DNA from: an alpha proteobacterium AAP38
GTDB taxonomy: Bacteria; Pseudomonadota; Alphaproteobacteria; Azospirillales; Azospirillaceae
Assembly (NCBI GenBank): GCA_001296005.1
Contig: LJHR01000012.1
Location: 1-44,322 of the forward strand
Direction of reading: 5' to 3'
DNA length: 44,322 bases
Shown: positions 25,219 to 35,744 of the stretch, one piece after another
Layout of the letters: each line of letters opens with the position of its first letter
Position numbering within the stretch: the stretch's first letter is position 1
Notes under the pieces: model-generated
Told to the model about the DNA's origin: nothing
The model's input: the letters and a program-made list of their open reading frames with translations, nothing else
Database searches by the model: none
Made by a program: the position numbers and the translations under genes

Positions 25219-26631
25219 TTACGCCGCACTGACTTGCTCCATCCCCACCACCGCCCACCCCGGCGCATGCGCCACCGCATCCCCCACCAGGATCAATGAC
25301 GGGGCGCCAGGGTCGGTGAGTGCCGGCGCGTGGGGCAGGGCGGCGATGGTGGCAAACCGCACCTCCGCATCCGGGCGGCAGGCATTGGCGATCAGGGCGG
25401 CGGGCGTGTCGGGCGGCAATCCCGCCTTGATCAGGCTGCCCGCAATATCGCCCAGCCGGTCGCGCCCCATATAGAGCGCCAGGGTCGTGCCCGGATCGGC
25501 CAGCTTGGTCCAGTCGATGGCATCGGTTTCGCCCGATGTGCGGCAATGGGCAGTAACCACGCGCATCGACCGCGCCACGCCGCGATGGGTCAGCGGCAGG
25601 CCCAGCTGTGCCGCCGCCCCCATCGCCGCCGTGATGCCGGGGATCACCGTCACGGCCACGCCGTGACTGCGCAGAAATTCCGCCTCTTCGCCGGCGCGGC
25701 CAAAGATGAACGGGTCCCCGCCCTTCAGCCGCACGACGCGCAGACCCTTTTTGGCACAGGTGGCCATCAGCCGGTTGGTGAATTCCTGCGGGACGGAGCG
25801 GCAGCCCGCCCGCTTGCCTACCGACACCAGCCGCGTTTCCCGCCGCGCCAGGGCCAGGATGCTGTCGGGCACCAGCGCATCGTGCAGGATGATATCGGCG
25901 GACCCGATAGCGCGGGCGGCATGCAGGGTCAGCAGGCCCGGATCACCGGGGCCGGCACCCACCAGCGTGACGGCCCCGCCCTCATCCCGCCCGCCGGCGG
26001 TGAAGCGGGACAGTTCGGCCATGATCTCTGCCACGGCCCCATCTTCGTCCATGCCCATCAACCGGTCGGCCAGGCTGCCTGACAGGACCCGGTCCCAGAA
26101 ACGCTGCCGGTCGCGGGTGGTGGACAGGGTGTGGCGCACGCCGTGACGGGCGCGCTGCGCGGCCCGCGCCAAACTGGCATAGCCGGCGGGGATCGCCGCT
26201 TCCAGCCGCTGGCGGATATTGCGGGCCAGGGCCGGGGCGCCGCCGCCCGTCGATACCGCCACCACCACGGGCGACCGGTCCAGGATGGCCGGCACCGTGA
26301 AATCGCACTGTTCGGGCACATCCACGACATTGACCAGCACATTGCGGGTAAAGGCGGCACAGCGGATACGGTCCGTCAGGTCGGGATCACCCGACCCGTC
26401 CATGGCGATGGTTACCCCGTCCAGAAGCTCTGGCCGGAACTCCGTCTCCCGCCGCCGGATGGCACCGCTTTCCAGCAGTTCCAGCATCTCCTCCCCCACC
26501 TCTGCCGCCAGAAGCAGGATATCGGCCCCGGCGCGGATCAGCAGCCGGGCCTTGGACGCCGCCGCGTCACCACCGCCTGCCAGCAGGACCGACCGGCCCC
26601 GCAGATCCAGAAACAGCGGGAAATAGGGCAT
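25219..26631 (-). CDS. cysG: Siroheme synthase (CysG)
   Basis: 470-residue trifunctional enzyme. The N-terminal precorrin-2 dehydrogenase/ferrochelatase part starts with MPYFPLFLDLRGRSVLLAGG and the C-terminal half is the uroporphyrinogen-III methyltransferase (from about residue 210: VTLVGAGPGDPGLLTL, later VVRLKGGDPFIFGRAGEE and GITAAMGAAAQLGLPLTHR). It makes siroheme from uroporphyrinogen III, the cofactor required by the NirB nitrite reductase encoded upstream. The frame is open far upstream, but the family start is ATG 26631, which lies 13 bp after the nitrate reductase stop. It is the last gene of the nirB-nirD-nasA-cysG transcription unit. Confidence 0.93.
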   Translation of the reverse strand: MPYFPLFLDLRGRSVLLAGGGDAAASKARLLIRAGADILLLAAEVGEEMLELLESGAIRRRETEFRPELLDGVTIAMDGSGDPDLTDRIRCAAFTRNVLVNVVDVPEQCDFTVPAILDRSPVVVAVSTGGGAPALARNIRQRLEAAIPAGYASLARAAQRARHGVRHTLSTTRDRQRFWDRVLSGSLADRLMGMDEDGAVAEIMAELSRFTAGGRDEGGAVTLVGAGPGDPGLLTLHAARAIGSADIILHDALVPDSILALARRETRLVSVGKRAGCRSVPQEFTNRLMATCAKKGLRVVRLKGGDPFIFGRAGEEAEFLRSHGVAVTVIPGITAAMGAAAQLGLPLTHRGVARSMRVVTAHCRTSGETDAIDWTKLADPGTTLALYMGRDRLGDIAGSLIKAGLPPDTPAALIANACRPDAEVRFATIAALPHAPALTDPGAPSLILVGDAVAHAPGWAVVGMEQVSAA

Positions 26632-26644
26632 GGGGCTTGCCGGA

Positions 26645-29290
26645 TCAGGCCGCGACGACAGGTGCAGCATGGCGCAGGATCTCCTTGATCTCGGGAAGGC
26701 AGGAACCGCAGCCGGTGCCGGCGGCGGTGAGTTTGCCGATATCGGCGACGGAGCAGGCTTTGCCCGACCGGACAGCGGCGGCGATCTTGTTGCGGCCCAC
26801 CCCATGGCAGGAACAGACGATGGGGCCATCATCGGCCCCCTCCGTCTCCGGCGCGCGACCGGCCAGAAGGCGGGTGCGGTCCATGGGCGTCAGGGTCGGC
26901 TTGGCGAACAGGGCGGACAGCCAGTCGCGCGAAATCTCCGGCCGTTCGGGGGCCAGGAACAAGGCGGCTGTCAGCTTCCCATCCTTCACCCAGGCCCGGC
27001 GCGTGACTGCGCGGGACGGGTCGGTGAAGTCCAGGATTTCGCAATCCTCCAGCCCGGACAGGGCAGGGGCGTCATCACCAGCCAGCTCAAAAATCCGGCA
27101 CGCCCCCGCCTCCTGCCGCACCCAATAGGGAATGGCGGAAAACTCATGCTTGCGCGTGGTGAAGAACAGGCCCGCCCAGGCGGTGATGAACCGTTCCACC
27201 CGCACGGGCACATGCTTGCTTTCCGGCTGGCCCGACACCGGGTCGGTATGCGGGGCGATCAGGCGGCCGATGCCCCCCTTGGCCGACAGTGTGTCGGACC
27301 AATGCATGGGGATAAAGACCTGACCCGCCCGCTGTGCCTCGGTAATCGCTACGCGCAGCACGGCCTCGCCCTGCAAACTGATCACGCGGGCCAGTTCACC
27401 GTCCAGAAGGTCGGCGGCCTGCGCGTCGGTGGGGTGGATTTCCAGCAGCGGTTCCGGGCGGTGGGCCGACAGGCGGGCGGACAGGCCCGTGCGCGTCATC
27501 GTGTGCCATTGGTCGCGATACCGCCCCGTATTGGCGATCAGGGGAAAGCGCAGGGAGGCGCGTTCCACGGGCGGCACATGGCGTACGGCCAGCATGCGGG
27601 CCCGGCCATTGCCGTGGGTGAAGCGGCCATCAGCATACATCCGGTCGGTGCCGCGCTTGGCGCCTGCCGGCATTGGCCATTGGAACGGCTCCATGCCCGC
27701 ATAGTCCGCCTCCCGCTTGCGGCCCCAGGCGGCGATGTCGAAGGCGCGCAGGCCATCATTCTCAAACCCCGACAGGATGGCATGTTCGCGGAACACCTCG
27801 CCCGGTGTGCGCCAGGCGAACGCGGGGCCGTAGCCCATGACGGTCGCGACCTTGGACATGATCCACCAATCGGCCTTGGCCTCCCCCGGTCCGTCGCGGA
27901 ACGGGCGCTGGCGGGAAATGCGGCGTTCGGAGTTGGTGACGGTGCCATCCTTCTCCCCCCAGCCCAATGCGGGCAGGCGGATATGGGCGTAATCCATACT
28001 GTCGGTGCTGCCCACGATGTCGGACACGATGACCGTGGGGCACAGGCGCAGGGCCTCGCGCACAAGGTCCGCTTCGGGCAGGCTGACCGCCGGGTTGGTG
28101 GCCATTATCCACAGGGCCTTGATGCGGCCTTCCCGGATGGCGCGGAACATGTCCACGGCCTTCAACCCCTGCCCACCCTTCAACGCCGGGGCGTTCCAGA
28201 ACCGGCGCAGCCTTTCCACATCCGCCGGGTCGTCGGGGTTCATATGGGCGGCCAGCTGGTTGGCCAGCCCGCCCACCTCGCGCCCGCCCATGGCATTGGG
28301 CTGCCCGGTCACGGAAAACGGGCTGGACCCCGGCTTGCCCACCCGGCCCGTGGCCAGATGCACATTCAGGATAGCATTGACCTTGTCGGTGCCGCGCGAC
28401 GACTGGTTCACACCCTGGCTGAAGACTGTCACGGTACGCTGGGTGGCGGTGAACCAGTCATAGAAGGTGGCGATATCGGTAGGGTCCAGGCCACAGGTTG
28501 CGGCCACATCGCCCGCATCCTCGGCCGCTGCTTCCAGCGCTGCCTCCAGCCCCGTGACATGGCGCAACACATAGGCGCGGTCGATGGCCTCCACCCGGTC
28601 CAGATGCGCCAGCAAGCCGTTGAACAGGGCCACGTCGCTGCCGGGCTTCAAGGCCAGATGCAGATCGGCCAGATCAGAACTGGCCGTGCCGCGCGGATCG
28701 ATCAGGACGACGCGCGTGCCCCGGTCCCGCCGGGCGGTGCGCAGGCGCTGCGCCAGCACCGGGTGACACCAGGCCAGATTGGACCCGACCAGCACCACCA
28801 GATCGGCAATCTCCAGATCCTCATAATTGCCCGGCACCACATCGGCCCCGAAGGCGCGTTTGTGGCCGGCGACCGTGGAGGCCATGCAAAGTCTTGAATT
28901 GGTGTCGATATGCGGGCTGCCGATGAACCCTTTCAGCAGCTTGTTGGCGACATAGTAATCCTCCGTCAGCAACTGGCCGGAGACGTAGAAGGCGATGGCG
29001 TCGGGGCCATGTTCGGCCAGGGTTGCGGACAGCCGCCCCGCCACTTCGGCAATCGCTGTGTCCCAGGTGACCCGCTGACCGGCCACTTCCGGGTACAGCA
29101 GACGCACATCGCCTGCCGCCTCGGCATTGACCGTATCGATCAGGGCTGCCCCCTTGGAACAAAGACGCCCCTGGTTGGCCGGGTGGTCGGGATCGCCGCC
29201 CACCACCCAGCCATCCCGCGCCCGGCTGACAACCAGCCCGCAGCCAACGCCGCAATAGGGGCAGGTGGTGCGGATTTCGGTGGTGGACAT
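26645..29290 (-). CDS. nasA: Assimilatory nitrate reductase catalytic subunit
   Basis: 881-residue cytoplasmic molybdoenzyme reducing nitrate to nitrite. The N-terminal [4Fe-4S] site uses Cys10, 13, 17 and 44 (TCPYCGVGCG, RLCSKG). The bis-MGD molybdopterin oxidoreductase core follows, with the molybdenum-ligand region NSRLCMAS near residue 130, and the C-terminal dinucleotide-binding domain includes NTGRYRDQWHTMTRTG. A BFD-like [2Fe-2S] domain ends the protein (CSCHGVGRNKI then CGSCLPEI), supplying a second electron entry. No signal peptide is present, which excludes periplasmic NapA. GGAG precedes the ATG. A REP-like element separates it from nirD. No separate NasB/NasC reductase subunit is visible nearby, so the electron donor is unknown. 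Confidence 0.93.
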   Translation of the reverse strand: MSTTEIRTTCPYCGVGCGLVVSRARDGWVVGGDPDHPANQGRLCSKGAALIDTVNAEAAGDVRLLYPEVAGQRVTWDTAIAEVAGRLSATLAEHGPDAIAFYVSGQLLTEDYYVANKLLKGFIGSPHIDTNSRLCMASTVAGHKRAFGADVVPGNYEDLEIADLVVLVGSNLAWCHPVLAQRLRTARRDRGTRVVLIDPRGTASSDLADLHLALKPGSDVALFNGLLAHLDRVEAIDRAYVLRHVTGLEAALEAAAEDAGDVAATCGLDPTDIATFYDWFTATQRTVTVFSQGVNQSSRGTDKVNAILNVHLATGRVGKPGSSPFSVTGQPNAMGGREVGGLANQLAAHMNPDDPADVERLRRFWNAPALKGGQGLKAVDMFRAIREGRIKALWIMATNPAVSLPEADLVREALRLCPTVIVSDIVGSTDSMDYAHIRLPALGWGEKDGTVTNSERRISRQRPFRDGPGEAKADWWIMSKVATVMGYGPAFAWRTPGEVFREHAILSGFENDGLRAFDIAAWGRKREADYAGMEPFQWPMPAGAKRGTDRMYADGRFTHGNGRARMLAVRHVPPVERASLRFPLIANTGRYRDQWHTMTRTGLSARLSAHRPEPLLEIHPTDAQAADLLDGELARVISLQGEAVLRVAITEAQRAGQVFIPMHWSDTLSAKGGIGRLIAPHTDPVSGQPESKHVPVRVERFITAWAGLFFTTRKHEFSAIPYWVRQEAGACRIFELAGDDAPALSGLEDCEILDFTDPSRAVTRRAWVKDGKLTAALFLAPERPEISRDWLSALFAKPTLTPMDRTRLLAGRAPETEGADDGPIVCSCHGVGRNKIAAAVRSGKACSVADIGKLTAAGTGCGSCLPEIKEILRHAAPVVAA

Positions 29291-29797: not shown

Positions 29798-32272
29798 TCA
29801 CTCCACAGTGGCAAGTGCTTGGAAATCACGGGACGCCGGGGCACCGGGTGCGCGTTCGGCCCAGGGATCGACCTGCGCATGGCGCTGGCTGGCCAGGAAC
29901 CGTTCGTGCAGGGCGCGGCGGTTGTCGGCATCGTCCACCACGCGGGTCTTGACGAAATCCAGGCCCACCCGCTCGATCCAGGGGGCCGTGCGTTCCAGGT
30001 AATGCGCCTCTTCTCGATAGAGCTGCATGAAGGCGCCGCAATATTCCTGCACCTCCTCTTCGGTGGTCACCTTGGCCAGAAGGTCGGTGCCGCGCAGCTT
30101 GATGCCGCCATTGCCGCCGACCAGCAGGTCAAAGCCGCCATCGGTGGCGATGACGCCGAAATCCTTGATCGTCGCCTCCGCACAGTTCCGGGGACAGCCC
30201 GACACGGCCATCTTGAACTTGTGCGGGGTCCAGGAGCCCCAGGTCATCCGTTCCAGATTGACCCCGACCTCCATGGATTTCTGCGTGCCGAACCGGCACC
30301 ATTCCGACCCCACACAGGTCTTTACCGTCCGCAGCGCCTTGCCATAGGCATGGCCCGACACCATGCCGGCCCCGTTCAGATCGGCCCAGACGGCGGGAAG
30401 ATCTTCCTTCTTGATGCCCAGCAGGTCGATACGCTGCCCGCCCGTCACCTTCACGGTTGGGATGTCGAACTTGTCCACCACATCGGCGATGGCGCGCAGT
30501 TCCTTGGCATTGGTCAACCCGCCCCACATGCGGGGGACGACTGAATAGGTGCCGTCCTTCTGGATGTTGGCATGCACGCGCTCATTCACGAACCGGCTGG
30601 CGCCGTGGTCGACATACTCACCGGGCCAAGTGGCCAGCAGATAGTAATTCAGGGCCGGGCGGCAGGTGTGGCAGCCATCGGGCGTCTTCCATTCCAGCGC
30701 CTGCATGACGGCGGGAATGGATTTCAGTTCCTGCACGCGGATCAGGCGGCGGATCGTATCATGGTCATGGTCGCTGCATTTGCAGATCGGCTTGACCCCT
30801 GCCGCCTCATACTCACCACCCAGCGTATGGGCCAGCAGCCCTTCCACCAACCCGGTGCAGGACCCGCACGACGCCGATGCCTTGGTCGTGGCCTTCACCT
30901 GATCCAGGGTTGTCAGACCCTTTTCGGCGATGGCCTTGACGATGGTGCCCTTGCAGACGCCGTTGCAGCCGCAGATTTCTGCCGTATCAGGCAGCGCCGC
31001 AACGGCGGCGGTAGGGTTTGCGGCACCGCCTTCCTTGGCTGCGAAACCCTGCCCGAAGATCAGGGTGTCGCGCAGGCCGCTGACATCCTCGCCTGCCTTC
31101 AGAAGCTGGAAATACCAGGCCCCATCGGCGGTATCGCCATACATCACCGCACCCTTGATGCGGCCATCCTGCAGAACGATGCGCTTGTAAACGCCACGGC
31201 CCGCATCGCGGAAAACGATATCCTCCGTCCCCGGCCCACCGCTGAAATCACCGGCGGAGAACACGTCCACGCCCGTGACCTTCAACTTGGTGGAGGTGAC
31301 GGAACCCGGATAGCCCGCAGCCTGTTTACCGGCCAGATGATCTGCCAGGACCTTGGCCATCTCAAACAGCGGCTGCACCAGACCGTAACAGGCCCCGCGA
31401 TGCTGCACGCACTCGCCGACGGCAGTGATGGCGGGATCGTTGGTCACCATATGGTCATCGACCATGATGCCGCGCCCAACCTCCAAACCTGCTGCTGCCG
31501 CCAGCCTTGTGTCGGGACGGATGCCCACGGCCATCACCACCAGATCGGCCTTCAGTTCGGTACCGTCCTTCAGCGCCACACCGGTCACATGGGTGTCACC
31601 CAGGATGGCGGCGGTATCGGCGCTGGTCAGGACGGTCAGGCCCCGGCGTTCCAGTTCCCGGGCCAGCAGATGACCGGCGGACGGGTCCAGCTGCCGTTCC
31701 ATCAGATGCCCGGCCAGATGCAGGACGGTAACGTCCATTCCCCGCGCCTTCAGGCCGACGGCGGCTTCCAGGCCCAGCAACCCACCGCCGATAACCACGG
31801 CGTGCCCGCCCTGGGCACTGGCGGCCAGCATGGCATCGACATCATCCACGTCGCGGAAGGTGACCACGCCGGGCAGGCGCGCGCCTGGGATGGGGATGAC
31901 GATGGGCATGGAACCGGTGGCGATCAGCAGCCGGTCATAGGGGACGGAAAGGCCGGAACGCGTGATCACCACCTGATCATCGCGGTCGATCTGTTCCACC
32001 GGGTCGCCGGCATGCAGCTTGATATGGTTGCTGGCGTACCAGTCCAGGTCGTTGATCACGATCTGGTCAAAGGTCTTTTCGCCCGACAGCAAGGGCGACA
32101 GCATGATGCGGTTATAATTCACGCGCGGTTCGGCGCCGAACACCGTGATGTCGTACAGGTCGGGGGCCCGTTCCAGCAATTCCTCGACAGCGCGGATGCC
32201 GGCCATGCCATTGCCGATAACGACCAGCCGGGGGCGTGAACGGGTGGCCGGGGGGGCGGAGAAGGGGGTCAT
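29798..32272 (-). CDS. nirB: NAD(P)H nitrite reductase large subunit
   Basis: 824-residue cytoplasmic siroheme enzyme reducing nitrite to ammonium. The FAD/NAD(P)H domain starts with LVVIGNGMAGIRAVEELL and contains AVVIGGGLLGLEAAVGL. A rubredoxin-reductase-like part and BFD [2Fe-2S] domain follow (CGCNGVCKGTIV and ASCGSCTGLVEG). The siroheme/[4Fe-4S] half-domains end with ligand Cys in CVGSEWCRFGTQ (near residue 650) and SGCPRNCAEATIKD (near 690). The frame stays open upstream to 32554; ATG 32272 is preferred, with GGAG six bases before it, and ATG 32284 is the alternative. It is preceded by a sigma-54 promoter and an attenuator leader, which place it under NtrC and NasT type control. Confidence 0.93.
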   Translation of the reverse strand: MTPFSAPPATRSRPRLVVIGNGMAGIRAVEELLERAPDLYDITVFGAEPRVNYNRIMLSPLLSGEKTFDQIVINDLDWYASNHIKLHAGDPVEQIDRDDQVVITRSGLSVPYDRLLIATGSMPIVIPIPGARLPGVVTFRDVDDVDAMLAASAQGGHAVVIGGGLLGLEAAVGLKARGMDVTVLHLAGHLMERQLDPSAGHLLARELERRGLTVLTSADTAAILGDTHVTGVALKDGTELKADLVVMAVGIRPDTRLAAAAGLEVGRGIMVDDHMVTNDPAITAVGECVQHRGACYGLVQPLFEMAKVLADHLAGKQAAGYPGSVTSTKLKVTGVDVFSAGDFSGGPGTEDIVFRDAGRGVYKRIVLQDGRIKGAVMYGDTADGAWYFQLLKAGEDVSGLRDTLIFGQGFAAKEGGAANPTAAVAALPDTAEICGCNGVCKGTIVKAIAEKGLTTLDQVKATTKASASCGSCTGLVEGLLAHTLGGEYEAAGVKPICKCSDHDHDTIRRLIRVQELKSIPAVMQALEWKTPDGCHTCRPALNYYLLATWPGEYVDHGASRFVNERVHANIQKDGTYSVVPRMWGGLTNAKELRAIADVVDKFDIPTVKVTGGQRIDLLGIKKEDLPAVWADLNGAGMVSGHAYGKALRTVKTCVGSEWCRFGTQKSMEVGVNLERMTWGSWTPHKFKMAVSGCPRNCAEATIKDFGVIATDGGFDLLVGGNGGIKLRGTDLLAKVTTEEEVQEYCGAFMQLYREEAHYLERTAPWIERVGLDFVKTRVVDDADNRRALHERFLASQRHAQVDPWAERAPGAPASRDFQALATVE

Positions 32273-32308
32273 GTCTGGCTCCATCCATCTCTTGCGCAAA
32301 AAACGCGC

Positions 32309-32371
32309 AATAAAAAAGGCGTCCGACCGTGCATCGTCCCTCGCCTGGGGACAGTTACACGTTCGGACGCC
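32309..32371 (-). terminator. Attenuator terminator in the nirB leader
   Basis: Read on minus, GGCGTCCGA (32371-32363) pairs with TCGGACGCC (32326-32318). Inner CGTG/CACG and GTCCC/GGGAC pairs follow, and the stem is followed immediately by TTTTTTATT. It is a very strong intrinsic terminator located between the sigma-54 promoter and nirB, so transcription must be antiterminated for the operon to be expressed. A further short inverted repeat (TTGCGC at 32292-32297 and GCGCAA at 32305-32310) lies just past it, before the ribosome site. Confidence 0.85.
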
Positions 32372-32381
32372 ATTATCCGGT

Positions 32382-32454
32382 GGGGCCCGGCCTTGGACCC
32401 CTATATGCACCCTTCCCACCGGGAAGGGCCGTCGCAACGCTGCATCGCCTTGCG
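32382..32454 (-). ncRNA. ANTAR-type antiterminator leader hairpins of the nirB operon
   Basis: On minus, P2 (32401-32382) is a 7-bp stem with hexaloop AAGGCC, having the A1 and G4 that ANTAR proteins recognise. P1 (32454-32433) folds as CGCAA/TTGCG plus GC/GC around hexaloop GATGCA, with an internal G-G mismatch. A third strong hairpin (32428-32410) lies between them. The set is directly upstream of the terminator at 32371-32309. The adjacent nasT gene encodes the expected RNA-binding antiterminator. P1 has G rather than A at loop position 1, so it is less certain than P2. Confidence 0.7.
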
Positions 32455-32467
32455 CCGCTCCCCTATT

Positions 32468-32483
32468 TGCGAATGCCGTGCCA
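32468..32483 (-). promoter_or_regulatory. Sigma-54 promoter of nirB operon
   Basis: On minus the sequence TGGCACGGCATTCGCA matches the sigma-54 consensus TGGCACG-N4-TTGCW at every fixed position except one (C for the second T), with GG and GC exactly ten bases apart. Transcription would start near 32457, giving a leader of about 185 bases that contains P1, P2 and the terminator. Confidence 0.75.
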
Positions 32484-32562
32484 AGGCGGCAACCCGTTGG
32501 AATCACAGGATTCCAGGGGAGGGAGGCCGACGTAGGGGACCCATCCATTGCCAAAAATTAAG

Positions 32563-32583
32563 GCATCGCCCAAACGGTGATGC
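32563..32583. promoter_or_regulatory. NtrC-like palindrome between divergent promoters
   Basis: Arms GCATCGCC and GGTGATGC (7 of 8 complementary) flank five bases. The centre is about 115 bp upstream of the predicted nirB start and about 100 bp upstream of the transporter start. That suits an enhancer shared by two sigma-54 promoters. It departs from the textbook GCACC-N5-GGTGC spacing, so the binder is tentative. Confidence 0.45.
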
Positions 32584-32647
32584 ATTTTTGTGCAGTTACG
32601 AAGGGTCGCGGTGGCGCAAAGCCCCGGAATCCCGCGCCTGCGCCCGC

Positions 32648-32663
32648 TGGCACGGCCATTGCT
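32648..32663 (+). promoter_or_regulatory. Sigma-54 promoter of narK-nasTS
   Basis: TGGCACGGCCATTGCT is a full match to the sigma-54 consensus TGGCACG-N4-TTGCW. It is followed by AT-rich sequence and a start expected near 32674, about 127 bp before the transporter gene. Confidence 0.82.
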
Positions 32664-32673
32664 GAATAAAACC

Positions 32674-32742
32674 TGTCCCGAGGCAGGGATATTCCATCGT
32701 CCAACGGCGGACGACCAGGCAGGGGTGGGTTGATCCCCCACC
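32674..32742 (+). ncRNA. ANTAR-type leader hairpins of the transporter operon
   Basis: P1 (32674-32691) has the stem UCCC/GGGA extended by two weaker pairs and hexaloop GAGGCA. P2 (32697-32714) is TCGTCC/GGACGA around hexaloop AACGGC with A1 and G4. Only five bases separate them. The loops mirror those in the nirB leader (GATGCA and AAGGCC). A third hairpin, GGTGGG/CCCACC (32724-32742), follows but lacks a T tract, so the effect here may be on translation or a Rho-dependent event rather than intrinsic termination. Confidence 0.65.
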
Positions 32743-32800
32743 GCAACGCATGGCCGCCGACGGGGAACCGACAGGCGGCCCGGACGACAAAGGCATCACG

Positions 32801-34129
32801 ATGGATATCCGCAACAAGGCCACGCGCATCGACCTGTTCACGCTGAAAAGCGTGCAGATGCGGGCCTTTCACATGACTTGGTTTGCGTTCTTCCTCTGCT
32901 TCTTCGGCTGGTTCGGTATTGCCCCGCTGATGGCGGTGGTCCGTGACGATCTGGGTCTGACCAAGGGGCAGATCGGCAATATCATGATTGCGTCGGTGGC
33001 CATCACGGTCGCCGTGCGCCTGATCATCGGGCCGATGTGTGACTGGTTCGGCCCGCGCCGCACCTATACCGGCCTGTTGGCGTTCGGCTCCGTGCCCGTC
33101 ATGTGCGTGGGTCTGGCCGATAGTTACGAGACGTTTCTGCTGGCCCGTCTCGCCATCGGTGCCATTGGTGCCGCCTTTGTCATCACCCAGTATCATACCT
33201 CGGTGATGTTCGCGCCCAACGTGGTGGGCACGGCCAATGCGACCACGGCGGGGTGGGGCAATTTGGGTGGCGGGATCACGCAAATGGTGATGCCGCTGGT
33301 CCTGACCGGCATCCTGTTCCTTGGCGTGGACAAGGGCCATGCCTGGCGGCTGGCCATGGTGGTGCCGGGTCTGGTGCTGCTGGTGGCCGCACTCGCCTAT
33401 TGGCGCTTCACCCAGGATTGCCCGGAGGGTGATTTCAAGGATCTGCGCGCCGCTGGCCGCCTGCCGCCCGCCGGTGGGGGCAAGAACGGGGGCAAGGGCA
33501 AGGGTGGTTTCGTTACGGCCCTGTCCGATATCCGCGTCTGGGCCTTGTTTATCGCCTATGGCGCCTGCTTTGGCGTGGAGCTGACCCTGCACAATATTGC
33601 GGCCATCTATTTCTTCGACAATTTCAAGCTGGACCTCGCCACCGCCGGCATCATCGCGGGCCTTTTCGGTTCGATGAGCCTGTTTGCACGCACCCTGGGC
33701 GGCTTTCTCTCCGACCGCTGGGCCGGACAGGCCGGCTTGCAGGCGCGTGTGCGCCTCCTGTTCCTGGTGCTGTTTGCCGAAGGGCTGGCGCTGCTGCTGT
33801 TCTCGCAGATGACGGTCCTGTGGATCGCGGTGGCGGCGATGCTGTTCTTCTCGCTGTTCGTGCAGATGGGCTGCGGCGCCACCTTTGGCATCGTGCCGTT
33901 CGTGAACCGCAAGGCGCTGGGGTCCGTGTCGGGCATTGTCGGCGCGGGCGGGAACATGGGGGCGGTGGCCGCCGGTTTCCTTTTCAAGGCGGAAGGCATC
34001 ACCTATCAGCAGGGGCTGATGTATCTGGGCATCGCGGTGACCTTGGCGTCGCTGCCGACCCTGCTGATCCGCTTCAATGAGGGTGCGGTGGACGAGGTGC
34101 GGGGACCGGTCCCCGTGCCGGCGGAGTGA
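32801..34129 (+). CDS. narK: NarK/NasA-family nitrate/nitrite MFS transporter
   Basis: 442-residue, 12-helix inner-membrane transporter. The N-terminus after ATG 32801 (DIRNKATRIDLFTL then FHMTWFAFFLCFFGWFGIAPLM) matches the NarK/NrtP family start. The nitrate-signature-like glycine-rich stretches appear as GWGNLGGGITQMVMP and later GIVGAGGNMGAVAAG. Arg in VRLIIGPMCDWFGPRR is a candidate substrate-binding residue. The frame also opens at ATG 32750, but this falls inside leader structure and adds residues unlike the family. A weak AAAGG precedes 32801. It is the first gene of the narK-nasT-nasS unit. Confidence 0.9.
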   Translation: MDIRNKATRIDLFTLKSVQMRAFHMTWFAFFLCFFGWFGIAPLMAVVRDDLGLTKGQIGNIMIASVAITVAVRLIIGPMCDWFGPRRTYTGLLAFGSVPVMCVGLADSYETFLLARLAIGAIGAAFVITQYHTSVMFAPNVVGTANATTAGWGNLGGGITQMVMPLVLTGILFLGVDKGHAWRLAMVVPGLVLLVAALAYWRFTQDCPEGDFKDLRAAGRLPPAGGGKNGGKGKGGFVTALSDIRVWALFIAYGACFGVELTLHNIAAIYFFDNFKLDLATAGIIAGLFGSMSLFARTLGGFLSDRWAGQAGLQARVRLLFLVLFAEGLALLLFSQMTVLWIAVAAMLFFSLFVQMGCGATFGIVPFVNRKALGSVSGIVGAGGNMGAVAAGFLFKAEGITYQQGLMYLGIAVTLASLPTLLIRFNEGAVDEVRGPVPVPAE

Positions 34130-34146
34130 GGGTGACAGACAAAAGC

Positions 34147-34734
34147 ATGGCCAATCCTGAACCCAATATCCTGGTCATTGACGGCAATCCCGACCGTGCG
34201 GCGGTGGTGGAACGGGGGCTGGTGGAATCCGGTTGGGTGCGGGTCAGCACCATCGGCCCCTCGGTCAATCTACTGGCCCGCATCCAGGCGCTGGCGCCGG
34301 ATGTCATCATCATCGACCTGGAAAATCCCGACCGCGACACCCTGGAGCAGATGTTCCAGGTCAGCCGCGTGGTGCAGCGGCCCATCGCCATGTTCGTTGA
34401 CCAAAGCGACAGCCAGATGATTCATGCCGCTATTGAGGCCGGGGTCAGCGCCTATGTCGTGGATGGCCTTCGTCAGGACCGTATCAAGCCCATTGTTGAA
34501 ACGGCCATCACCCGCTTCAACGCCTTCGACCGGCTGCGCCGCGAACGGGACGAGGCGCAGTCCAAACTCCAGGACCGAAAACAGGTGGAGAAGGCCAAGG
34601 GCCTTCTGATGAAGCATCGCGGCCTGTCGGAGGAGGATGCCTACAACCTGATGCGGCGCACCGCCATGAAGCAGAACCGCAAATTGTCCGACATCGCGCA
34701 GAGCGTGATCACCGCCTTCGAGATGGAGCTTTGA
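34147..34734 (+). CDS. nasT: ANTAR-domain antiterminator NasT
   Basis: 195-residue regulator with a pseudo-receiver domain (about residues 5-120, ILVIDGNPDRA and VIIIDLENPDRD) and a C-terminal ANTAR domain (about 130-192, VEKAKGLLMKHRGLSEEDAY then RRTAMKQNRKLSDIA). In the NasS/NasT system it binds paired hexaloop hairpins in nas leaders and prevents terminator formation when nitrate releases it from NasS. Those hairpins are present in both leaders of this locus. The first in-frame starts, GTG 34126 and GTG 34132, overlap or abut the transporter stop. ATG 34147 fits the family N-terminus, but GTG 34132 has a better GGAG site. Confidence 0.92.
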   Translation: MANPEPNILVIDGNPDRAAVVERGLVESGWVRVSTIGPSVNLLARIQALAPDVIIIDLENPDRDTLEQMFQVSRVVQRPIAMFVDQSDSQMIHAAIEAGVSAYVVDGLRQDRIKPIVETAITRFNAFDRLRRERDEAQSKLQDRKQVEKAKGLLMKHRGLSEEDAYNLMRRTAMKQNRKLSDIAQSVITAFEMEL

Positions 34735-34736
34735 GA

Positions 34737-35744
34737 ATGGCCGAGATCGTCAAGCTGGGCTTCGCGCCCCTGGTGGATTGCGCCATTCCCGTCGCCGCCG
34801 CCGAAATGGGCTTTGCCGCCGCCGAAGGCATCGACCTGATGCTAGACCGCGCCCCGTCCTGGGCGGCCTTGCGGGACAAGCTGGCCTTCGGGCGGGTGGA
34901 TGGTGCCCATATCCTGGCACCCCTGGCGCTGGCCATTCATCACGGCATTGCCGGCGTGCCGGCCACGCCGCTGGTCGTGCCCGTGTCGCTGGGGCTGGCC
35001 AATAATGCCATCACTGTGTCGATGGAGCTTTATGAACGCATGGTGGCGGCGGCACCCGATGTGATGGCGGGGCCGCCTTCCCTGCGGGCGCGCGCGCTGC
35101 GTCCCGTCATCGATGCCGACCGCGAGGCGGGCAAGCCGTTCCTGTCCTTCGTCACCGTCTTCCATTTCTCCTGCCACCATTATGAGCTGCTGAAATGGCT
35201 GGCCGATGGCGGGATCAATGGGCGCACGGAGGTGAATATCGGCGTCATCGCTCCGCCGCGCATGGCGGAAAGCCTGGCCGCCGGCTGGATCGACGGCTAT
35301 TGCGCGGGCGAGCCCTGGAACCTGCGCGCCGTCCAGCGCGGGGTGGGCCAGGTGGTGGTGACCAAGGCCGATATCAGGCCCGATGGGTTGGAGAAGGTGC
35401 TGGGCCTGCGCGCCGATTGGGCCGATGCCGACCCCGCCCGCACCTCCGCCCTGATCCGCGCCGTGGTGAAGGCCGCCGACTGGTGCGCCGATCCGGCCAA
35501 CCGGGGCGATCTGGCCCGGTTGCTTGCCGAACCCCGCCATGTCGGGCTTGCGGCAGACCTTATTGCCGAAACCCTTGCCGGCGCCATGCCGGCCCCCAAC
35601 CGCAACCGACCCGACCCGGCGGATGTGGGCCGGCTGCTGACTGAGATGGCGGCTGCGGGGCAGTTGCAGGCGCCCGCCGATGGAGGGGCAGCGCTGACCG
35701 CCGTCTGGCGGCCTGATCTGTATGACGGGGCAATGGGGGGCTGA
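34737..35744 (+). CDS. nasS: Nitrate sensor NasS (NrtA/CmpA-like, cytoplasmic)
   Basis: 335-residue periplasmic-binding-protein-like fold without a signal peptide, hence a cytoplasmic sensor rather than a transport component. The start matches family members (IVKLGFAPLVDCAIPVAAAEM), and ligand-pocket regions VTVFHFSCHHYELLKWL and GYCAGEPWNLRAV are seen. NasS sequesters NasT without nitrate or nitrite and frees it when the ligand binds. GGAG lies eight bases before ATG 34737, inside the nasT 3' end, so the two are translationally coupled. The gene ends 8 bp from the convergent cupin gene. Confidence 0.92.
   Translation: MAEIVKLGFAPLVDCAIPVAAAEMGFAAAEGIDLMLDRAPSWAALRDKLAFGRVDGAHILAPLALAIHHGIAGVPATPLVVPVSLGLANNAITVSMELYERMVAAAPDVMAGPPSLRARALRPVIDADREAGKPFLSFVTVFHFSCHHYELLKWLADGGINGRTEVNIGVIAPPRMAESLAAGWIDGYCAGEPWNLRAVQRGVGQVVVTKADIRPDGLEKVLGLRADWADADPARTSALIRAVVKAADWCADPANRGDLARLLAEPRHVGLAADLIAETLAGAMPAPNRNRPDPADVGRLLTEMAAAGQLQAPADGGAALTAVWRPDLYDGAMGG

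Follow-up and report, generated by a model that had tools for sequence, protein, structure and literature searches.

The region between nirB and narK in the 44,322-nucleotide stretch of DNA analyzed here (the window) is quite probably a divergent nitrate assimilation control region, in which RpoN and NtrC serve the promoters and NasT acts on the leaders of both operons. It contains two sigma-54 promoters, hexaloop hairpins behind each of them and, in the nirB leader, a hairpin (P3) that overlaps an intrinsic terminator. The same intergenic anatomy is conserved in 31 related loci from Niveispirillum, Caenispirillum, Thalassospira, Tistlia and their kin, with covariation in the form of compensatory changes in the stems. 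A further reading, tentative and on balance unlikely, is that NasT regulates the operon in which it is encoded by way of a leader that retains the hexaloops without a U-tract terminator, with Rho-dependent termination, translation or RNA stability as the output, while the divergent nirB leader is a three-hexaloop antiterminator, so that one protein would have two output mechanisms.

Gene content and comparative sample

The features are collected in Table 1. The initial annotation had placed nasT and nasS in the transporter operon, and this is borne out by the gene order narK-nasT-nasS and by the domain matches, with a receiver-ANTAR gene (PF00072 and PF03861) adjoining a gene for an NMT1-like binding protein (PF13379), as in a NasS-NasT gene pair. 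Note that narK, nasT and nasS overlap one another in turn by 4 nt, provided that their listed starts are correct. This nasT is the sole ANTAR match in the genome, which also encodes RpoN and an NtrC above its curated cutoff (737 versus 558.6 bits). For the nasA-like protein no listed NCBIfam model scored above its cutoff. Among the Rfam families searched across the whole window, a terC RNA (RF03067; 40676-40736 on the plus strand), which at 56.3 bits exceeds its gathering score, was the single match above threshold, with none in the nirB-narK intergenic region.

Table 1. Genes, promoters and leader elements of the locus, in order of their position in the window
Feature	Position	Strand	Remarks
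cysG/cobA-type siroheme synthase	25219..26625	-	NF007922, 508 bits; start inferred from profile
nasA-like assimilatory nitrate reductase, C-terminal BFD domain	26645..29290	-	
nirB, nitrite reductase large subunit	29798..32272	-	TIGR02374, 958 bits; ATG at 32272
nirB intrinsic terminator, GGCGUCCGA..UCGGACGCC-UUUUUU	32312..32371	-	exclusive with P3; stem 32371-32318, U run 32317-32312
nirB leader hairpin P3, CGGAU-AAUGGC-GUCCG	32364..32379	-	within terminator 5' arm; motif in 32/32 loci
nirB leader hairpin P2, GGGGUCC-AAGGCC-GGGCCCC	32382..32401	-	
nirB leader linker hairpin between P1 and P2	32409..32430	-	not an A1/G4 hexaloop
nirB leader hairpin P1, loop GAUGCA	32433..32454	-	G.G mismatch in stem; weakest of the three
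Sigma-54 promoter of nirB-nasA-cysG operon, TGGCACGGCATTCGCA	32468..32483	-	score 11.9 of 13.5
TGCATTTTTGTGCA between promoters, candidate activator site	32581..32594	.	only exact genome match to TGCAYWWWWKTGCA
Sigma-54 promoter of narK-nasT-nasS operon, TGGCACGGCCATTGCT (-24/-12)	32648..32663	+	score 13.5 of 13.5
narK leader hairpin P1, UGUCCC-GAGGCA-GGGAUA	32674..32691	+	G1, G4; from about +1
narK leader hairpin P2, UCGUCC-AACGGC-GGACGA	32697..32714	+	A1, G4; nearly invariant
G+C-rich hairpin past P2, GGUGGG..CCCACC-GCAACGC	32724..32742	+	no U run; at expected place of a terminator
Hairpin GGCCGCC..GGCGGCC	32752..32780	+	directly before narK ribosome-binding region
narK-type nitrate/nitrite MFS transporter	32801..34129	+	ATG at 32801; TIGR00886, 302.8 bits, just under cutoff of 311.7
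nasT, receiver and ANTAR domains (PF00072, PF03861)	34126..34734	+	listed start GTG; ATG at 34147 possible
nasS, NMT1-like binding-protein homologue (PF13379)	34731..35744	+	listed start TTG

Out of 80 relatives, 31 (L002-L030, L032 and L035) were analyzed together with the window, giving 32 loci; in L031, L033 and L034 nirB lies further off, and L036-L081 lack the divergent nirB/narK-nasT layout. A tblastn search found nirB, narK and nasT together in 26 of the 31. In the others, nirB is cut off (L002), narK is missing (L004, L010), or narK gave no match though the reading frames start alike (L015, L020). As judged by comparison of NasT, the nearest named relatives are Niveispirillum, with 91-99% identity. 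Three alignments were used, A1 with 31 nirB leaders (L017 was excluded for its Ns), A2 with the 22 distinct narK leader sequences and A3 with 14 Thalassospira-type narK leaders, and a set of 29 narK leaders was folded, from which L004 and L010 (unused) and L028 (no start found) are absent. The automatic search for P1 and P2 of the nirB leader failed in L005, L006 and L009 (wrong anchor) and in L015 (none found); inspection of A1 by eye located both hairpins in the first three, and P2 of L015 was not recovered.

Sigma-54 promoters and the DNA between them

Two divergent sigma-54 promoters had been proposed from the sequence, and they stand. They were scored with a hand-made matrix based on the sigma-54 consensus (maximum 13.5), and none of 300 dinucleotide shuffles reached either score in Table 1, the highest shuffle scores being 11.55 (plus strand) and 11.25 (minus strand). 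Both the GG/GC core at sigma-54 spacing and RpoN are present in this genome, and the perfect pattern TGGCACGNNNNTTGCW occurs 11 times in its 5.78 Mb, versus 0 for the reversed control pattern. On the narK side the best score is 10.8-13.5 in 32/32 loci, and on the nirB side 8.9-13.5 in 31/32, with L017 at 4.5 owing to its Ns there. In Thalassospira the -12 element of the nirB promoter is weak (TTGAA or TTGTA).

Sigma-54 transcripts begin about 12 nt beyond the GC element, and by this rule P1 starts at about +1 on the plus and at +4 on the minus strand. Counted from the -12 C, the P2 loop of the narK leader is 40-50 nt away in 10 loci (L008 of Caenispirillum, L015, the window and seven loci of Niveispirillum type, with L010) and 65-78 nt away in the remainder, so that promoter-to-P2 spacing varies among clades.

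Between the promoters, a clear NtrC site upstream of either one was not identified. With up to two mismatches allowed, TGCAYWWWWKTGCA is matched in 18 of the 31 central intergenic regions, that of the window among them, versus 17.6% of shuffles, a loose conservation, and the copy at 32581, TGCATTTTTGTGCA, does not fit the NtrC consensus. A perfect inverted repeat, TGGAATC-ACAG-GATTCCA (32498-32515), also lies between the promoters; an altered copy is seen in L002, and by eye it is not kept further.

The nirB leader has three hexaloops and an overlapping terminator

Paired hexaloop hairpins had been predicted for both transcripts. The hairpins are indeed conserved and covary, but the nirB leader holds three of them, the third, P3, having been missed. 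The P3 motif CGGAU-AAYGRC-GUCCG matches in 32/32 loci, and in all 32 its segment GRCGUCCG pairs 8/8 with a downstream arm that is followed by at least four T, a count in which the 3' arm may take in the first two T. One terminator pair inside the P3/terminator overlap is compensated, being G-C in 13 loci and A-U in 19. As P3 shares its sequence with the 5' arm of the U-tract terminator in 32/32 loci, it corresponds to the antiterminator hairpin of the canonical ANTAR scheme. Judged by sequence, P2 and P3, and not P1 and P2, form the canonical pair to which a mutually exclusive terminator belongs; P2 and P3 also provide the two A1/G4 hexaloops (AAGGCC and AAUGGC), which are conserved in A1 except for P2 of L008 (GAGGCU) and P2 of L015.

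For the window leader, the unconstrained minimum-energy fold contains P1 and P2 of the minus strand and is markedly stable (z = -4.3, with 0/200 shuffles equally stable). When the minus leader is shuffled 1000 times, 0.7% of the shuffles hold at least two strict A1/G4 hexaloops, the number observed; the corresponding figure for at least two R1/G4 hexaloops in the plus leader is 2.2% of 1000. Since such counts are unlikely yet possible by chance in the window alone, it is the comparison of 32 loci that settles the hairpins. Applied unprompted to the 31 leaders of A1, RNAalifold returned exactly three hairpins, all with hexaloops; it did not predict the linker hairpin, similar small versions of which are seen by eye, uncounted, in relatives.

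With the named three-hairpin structure imposed on A1, 92.4% of cells pair. Changes on both sides occur at 8/18 pairs versus 4.8 in shuffled alignments (reached by 1/500) and in 40 cells versus 15.4 +- 2.8, and the covariation score is 0.251 versus 0.135 shuffled, with each of six slid controls below 0.14; the count of further pair types was not above shuffles (162/500). This covariation sits in P1 and P2 and, as the stem pairs of P3 hardly vary, is no test of P3 itself. P1 lies upstream of P2 at a loop-to-loop distance of 47-53 nt (28 rows in which both were found automatically). Its loop begins with G, not A, in the window and several relatives, and the window clade combines this G1 loop with the G.G mismatch, a pair present in 5/31 rows.

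The narK-nasT-nasS leader keeps its hexaloops without a U-tract terminator

In the narK leader the loop of P2 is of the A1/G4 type, that of P1 is G1/G4, and P1 in relatives has either A1 or G1. The consensus of P2 is CGUCC-AAYGGC-GGRCG; its presence in 32/32 loci is partly by construction, as P2 served as the search anchor. P1 was found in 32/32 loci with a loop [AG]NNGNN, at a loop-to-loop spacing of 22-30 nt. Note that folding does not single out this leader: its stability is unremarkable (z = -1.8, 10/200 shuffles equally stable), the minimum-energy fold has P1 with a 4-nt loop and not the hexaloop, and on free folding of the 29 leaders the mean probability of P2 is 0.21. In A2, 97.3% of cells are paired versus 88.9, and 19 cells are changed on both sides versus 6.8 +- 1.9; two coarser measures do not stand out from the shuffles (both-side-changed pairs 48/500, pair types 42/500). 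Three stem pairs of P1 are changed on both sides, in two cases with at least six sequences.

One could take the repeats of both leaders for conserved DNA sites that bind a protein near the promoters, given that those of the window lie within about 120 bp of them and that plus-strand P2 is almost invariant. Compensatory changes affect P1 in the two leaders, P2 of nirB and the nirB terminator; they argue for RNA hairpins instead, and make the DNA-site reading highly improbable.

No U-tract terminator excluded by P2 was found in the narK leader, where the longest T run within 32664-32800 is 2. In 26/32 loci no T run longer than 3 follows P2; in the remaining 6, TTTT lies 14-16 nt past P2, and in L026 and L030 also further on. 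A terminator scan of the narK leader reported none, a weak result as its 8-base loop limit also misses the nirB terminator. Instead, G+C-rich or mixed helices follow P2 in the narK leaders of the window clade and of Thalassospira. In L005-L009 (N. irakense-type and Caenispirillum) the narK side has a third hexaloop, for example CAGGC-AAUGGC-GCCUG, overlapping a terminator-like stem that is then followed only by UUAU or UUCAU. The ancestral narK leader may, on the evidence of these sequences, have worked as an antiterminator, a form since lost in the window clade.

In the Thalassospira narK leaders (e.g. L018, 4288-4477), P2 and the start of narK are about 180 nt apart, and this stretch has a mean column identity of 81% among 14 sequences and several predicted helices that no U tract follows. 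In L004 (5402-6001) and L010 (3318-3891), where narK is missing, the leader continues towards nasT, which strengthens the case for nasT itself being under the leader.

It is a real possibility, if somewhat short of probable, that NasT acts on the narK-nasT-nasS leader without an intrinsic terminator. The conserved hairpins that lie between P2 and the start codon would then be its means of affecting termination (Rho-dependent or atypical), the initiation of translation or the stability of the RNA. P1 and P2 are kept in 32 loci in spite of the short T runs, both-side changes occur in 6/46 predicted pairs of the additional helices in A3, and ANTAR RNAs are stated to regulate translation or transcription (PMC8164766). 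The candidate switches that we tried speak against it. Sequestration of the ribosome site gained no support, the mean unpaired probability being 0.36 in the free fold and 0.40 with P2 forced, and accessibility of the start codon changed from 0.33 to 0.41 (29 leaders, the start of L035 being doubtful; no shuffled control). A duplex of the linker and the narK start codon, of about 12 bp including one bulge (-17.3 kcal/mol), was discounted as evidence, 56/898 control ORFs being equally strong. The third hexaloop and terminator-like stem of L005-L009 moreover point to antitermination in those loci. A long-range 'anti-P2' helix from clade-wise RNAalifold was also discarded for want of covariation, its partner strands being invariant, or broken in L011, L023 and L027 by eye.

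The narK-leader hairpins might otherwise be a sink for NasT or a negative feedback element and not an induction switch. The missing U-tract terminator would fit such a role, as would narK-bjgb-flp of Bradyrhizobium diazoefficiens, whose leader has predicted NasT hairpins and which, in the results given for it, went up in a nasT mutant (PMC6759348); the conserved P2 and the promoter just upstream suit regulation in cis, and we regard a sink or feedback element as improbable.

Related leaders elsewhere in the genome

The initial annotation had advised a model search for the ANTAR hairpin pair. Models built from A2 and A1 recognized their own leaders as the best matches in the genome (E = 3.2e-10 and 1.5e-17). 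The Rfam models matched the narK leader only below threshold: it scored 18.9 bits against 43.2 for RF00625 (Pseudomonas P11) and 14.7 against 70 for RF03032 (narK RNA), and the nirB leader gave no match to either up to E = 10. Among the candidates scored in the two genome searches (150 of 5027 and 150 of 7127 at first look), only the two window leaders matched strongly, with a further match at C3:194801 (E = 0.02). The narK-side model matches in 9/11 genomes of the genus and gave one weak match, which looks coding by eye, among 71 other genomes of the family (G029).

This further match is a third NasT-type leader (G000:C3:194801-194879; L089, L103), outside the window and before a porin-like gene. 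By eye it has a sigma-54-like site and the hexaloops AACGGC and AAUGGC, the second overlapping a U-tract terminator. The gene has a weak alginate-export-type match (PF13372, 23.9 bits, under the cutoff of 25.2), and its product no NCBIfam match. Each of the 4 genomes whose porin match is nearly full-length, own included, keeps the leader (L103-L106); a porin match of any kind exists in 5/11 genomes of the genus. In two (G070, G073) the porin gene lies about 7-9 kb from the nas leader on one contig, and in the own genome and G068 it is on a separate contig.

The P3 motif GGAYAAYGRCGTCY has 8 exact matches in the genome, two of which are the nirB and porin leaders. Of the remaining six and four weaker model or near matches, 0/10 showed a P3-like hexaloop followed by a matching terminator; by eye, L113 resembles coding sequence, and L114 is simply a terminator. 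Taken with 49 one-mismatch matches, the motif is no commoner than a control pattern (57 versus 71).

Proposed mechanism

RpoN holoenzyme would start both transcripts, with activation under nitrogen limitation most likely by phosphorylated NtrC. The default state of the nirB-nasA-cysG leader would be the U-tract terminator. Nitrate would bind NasS and free NasT, as known from Paracoccus, and NasT dimers would bind the A1/G4 hexaloops. With P3 kept folded, the 5' arm of the terminator would be unavailable and RNA polymerase would read through the nirB leader, P1 possibly serving as an extra upstream docking hairpin. The same NasT would also bind P1 and P2 of the narK-nasT-nasS leader and so act on its own operon. 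We infer NasT binding, dependence on NtrC and the direction of control; the promoters, the hairpins, the P3/terminator overlap, conservation and covariation are seen in the sequences.

A two-layer control, with nitrogen limitation at the promoter and nitrate at the leader, had been suggested from the outset. The sigma-54 promoters followed by ANTAR-type leaders are in line with it, as are the genes for RpoN and NtrC; read-through on the narK side, where no U tract is found, is the part left unsupported. That the RNA regulator controls the operon encoding it is suggested by the conserved hairpins before the nasT operon, which no U tract follows. A simple reading of the narK side is opposed by the B. 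diazoefficiens result above, as narK, in spite of the NasT hairpins predicted in its leader, was not activated by NasT there (PMC6759348).

Comparison with known systems

Two-layer nitrogen and nitrate control of nas operons is already known from Klebsiella and Paracoccus, as the account of these systems in PMC5424462 has it. What is left as new is a nirB leader with three hexaloops, a leader of NasT type that stands before the nasT operon and has no U-tract terminator, and the conservation of the two as a divergent pair. A limited literature search, in which Azospirillum was the sole genus of these loci to be named, turned up no publication about the locus in the genera concerned. With one RNA-binding regulator and two divergent leaders, one with and one without an overlapping terminator, the locus offers a compact natural test bed.

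In Klebsiella oxytoca, nasF is reported to be under NtrA/NtrB/NtrC control for nitrogen limitation, and an ANTAR protein that acts on a hexaloop leader containing a terminator makes it respond to nitrate (PMC5424462, PMC3369936). The nitrogen-limitation layer and the nitrate layer at an ANTAR/hexaloop leader would be common to both systems, but nasF has a one-component NasR with a NIT domain and two hairpins in one leader, whereas the window has NasS-NasT, two divergent leaders and three nirB hexaloops. In Paracoccus denitrificans, the nasT promoter is described as controlled by NtrC and the nasA leader by NasT (PMC5424462), and nitrate is reported to dissociate NasS-NasT and NasT to bind the nasA leader RNA (PMC3795266). 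There the leader stands before nasA and nasT has its own promoter with an NtrC site, whereas in the window nasT lies behind a NasT-type leader.

The Rfam consensus letters of RF00625 and RF03032 contain a sigma-54-like core. In P11, the nirB leader, the annotated structure has the hexaloop AUAGAA, and GGAC-AAAGGC-GUC can be read as a second one, overlapping GGCGUC..GACGCC; the end of the narK RNA, CGAC-AAAGAC-GUCG, can likewise be read as a hexaloop. A prediction of 66 sigma-54 promoters for the COG that includes NasT, mainly in beta- and gammaproteobacteria (PMC12316311), agrees with the sigma-54 promoter before narK-nasT-nasS.

In Pseudomonas aeruginosa amiECBRS, AmiR is described as answering to the ligand-binding AmiC, and amiR lies in the operon whose leader AmiR targets (PMC3369936), a regulator-in-operon feedback implied by the gene order. 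AmiR and the Enterococcus eut regulator are ANTAR proteins like NasT, with signals different from that of the window system. In the eut, amiE and nasF leaders, as the papers depict them, the second hexaloop overlaps the terminator (PMC3369931, PMC8934654, PMC3369936), and P2, P3 and the terminator of the window nirB leader have this same arrangement. With one more conserved hexaloop, placed about 50 nt upstream, the nirB leader bears on the two-hexaloop rule, whereas in eut the length of the linker is reported to be critical (PMC3369931, PMC8934654).
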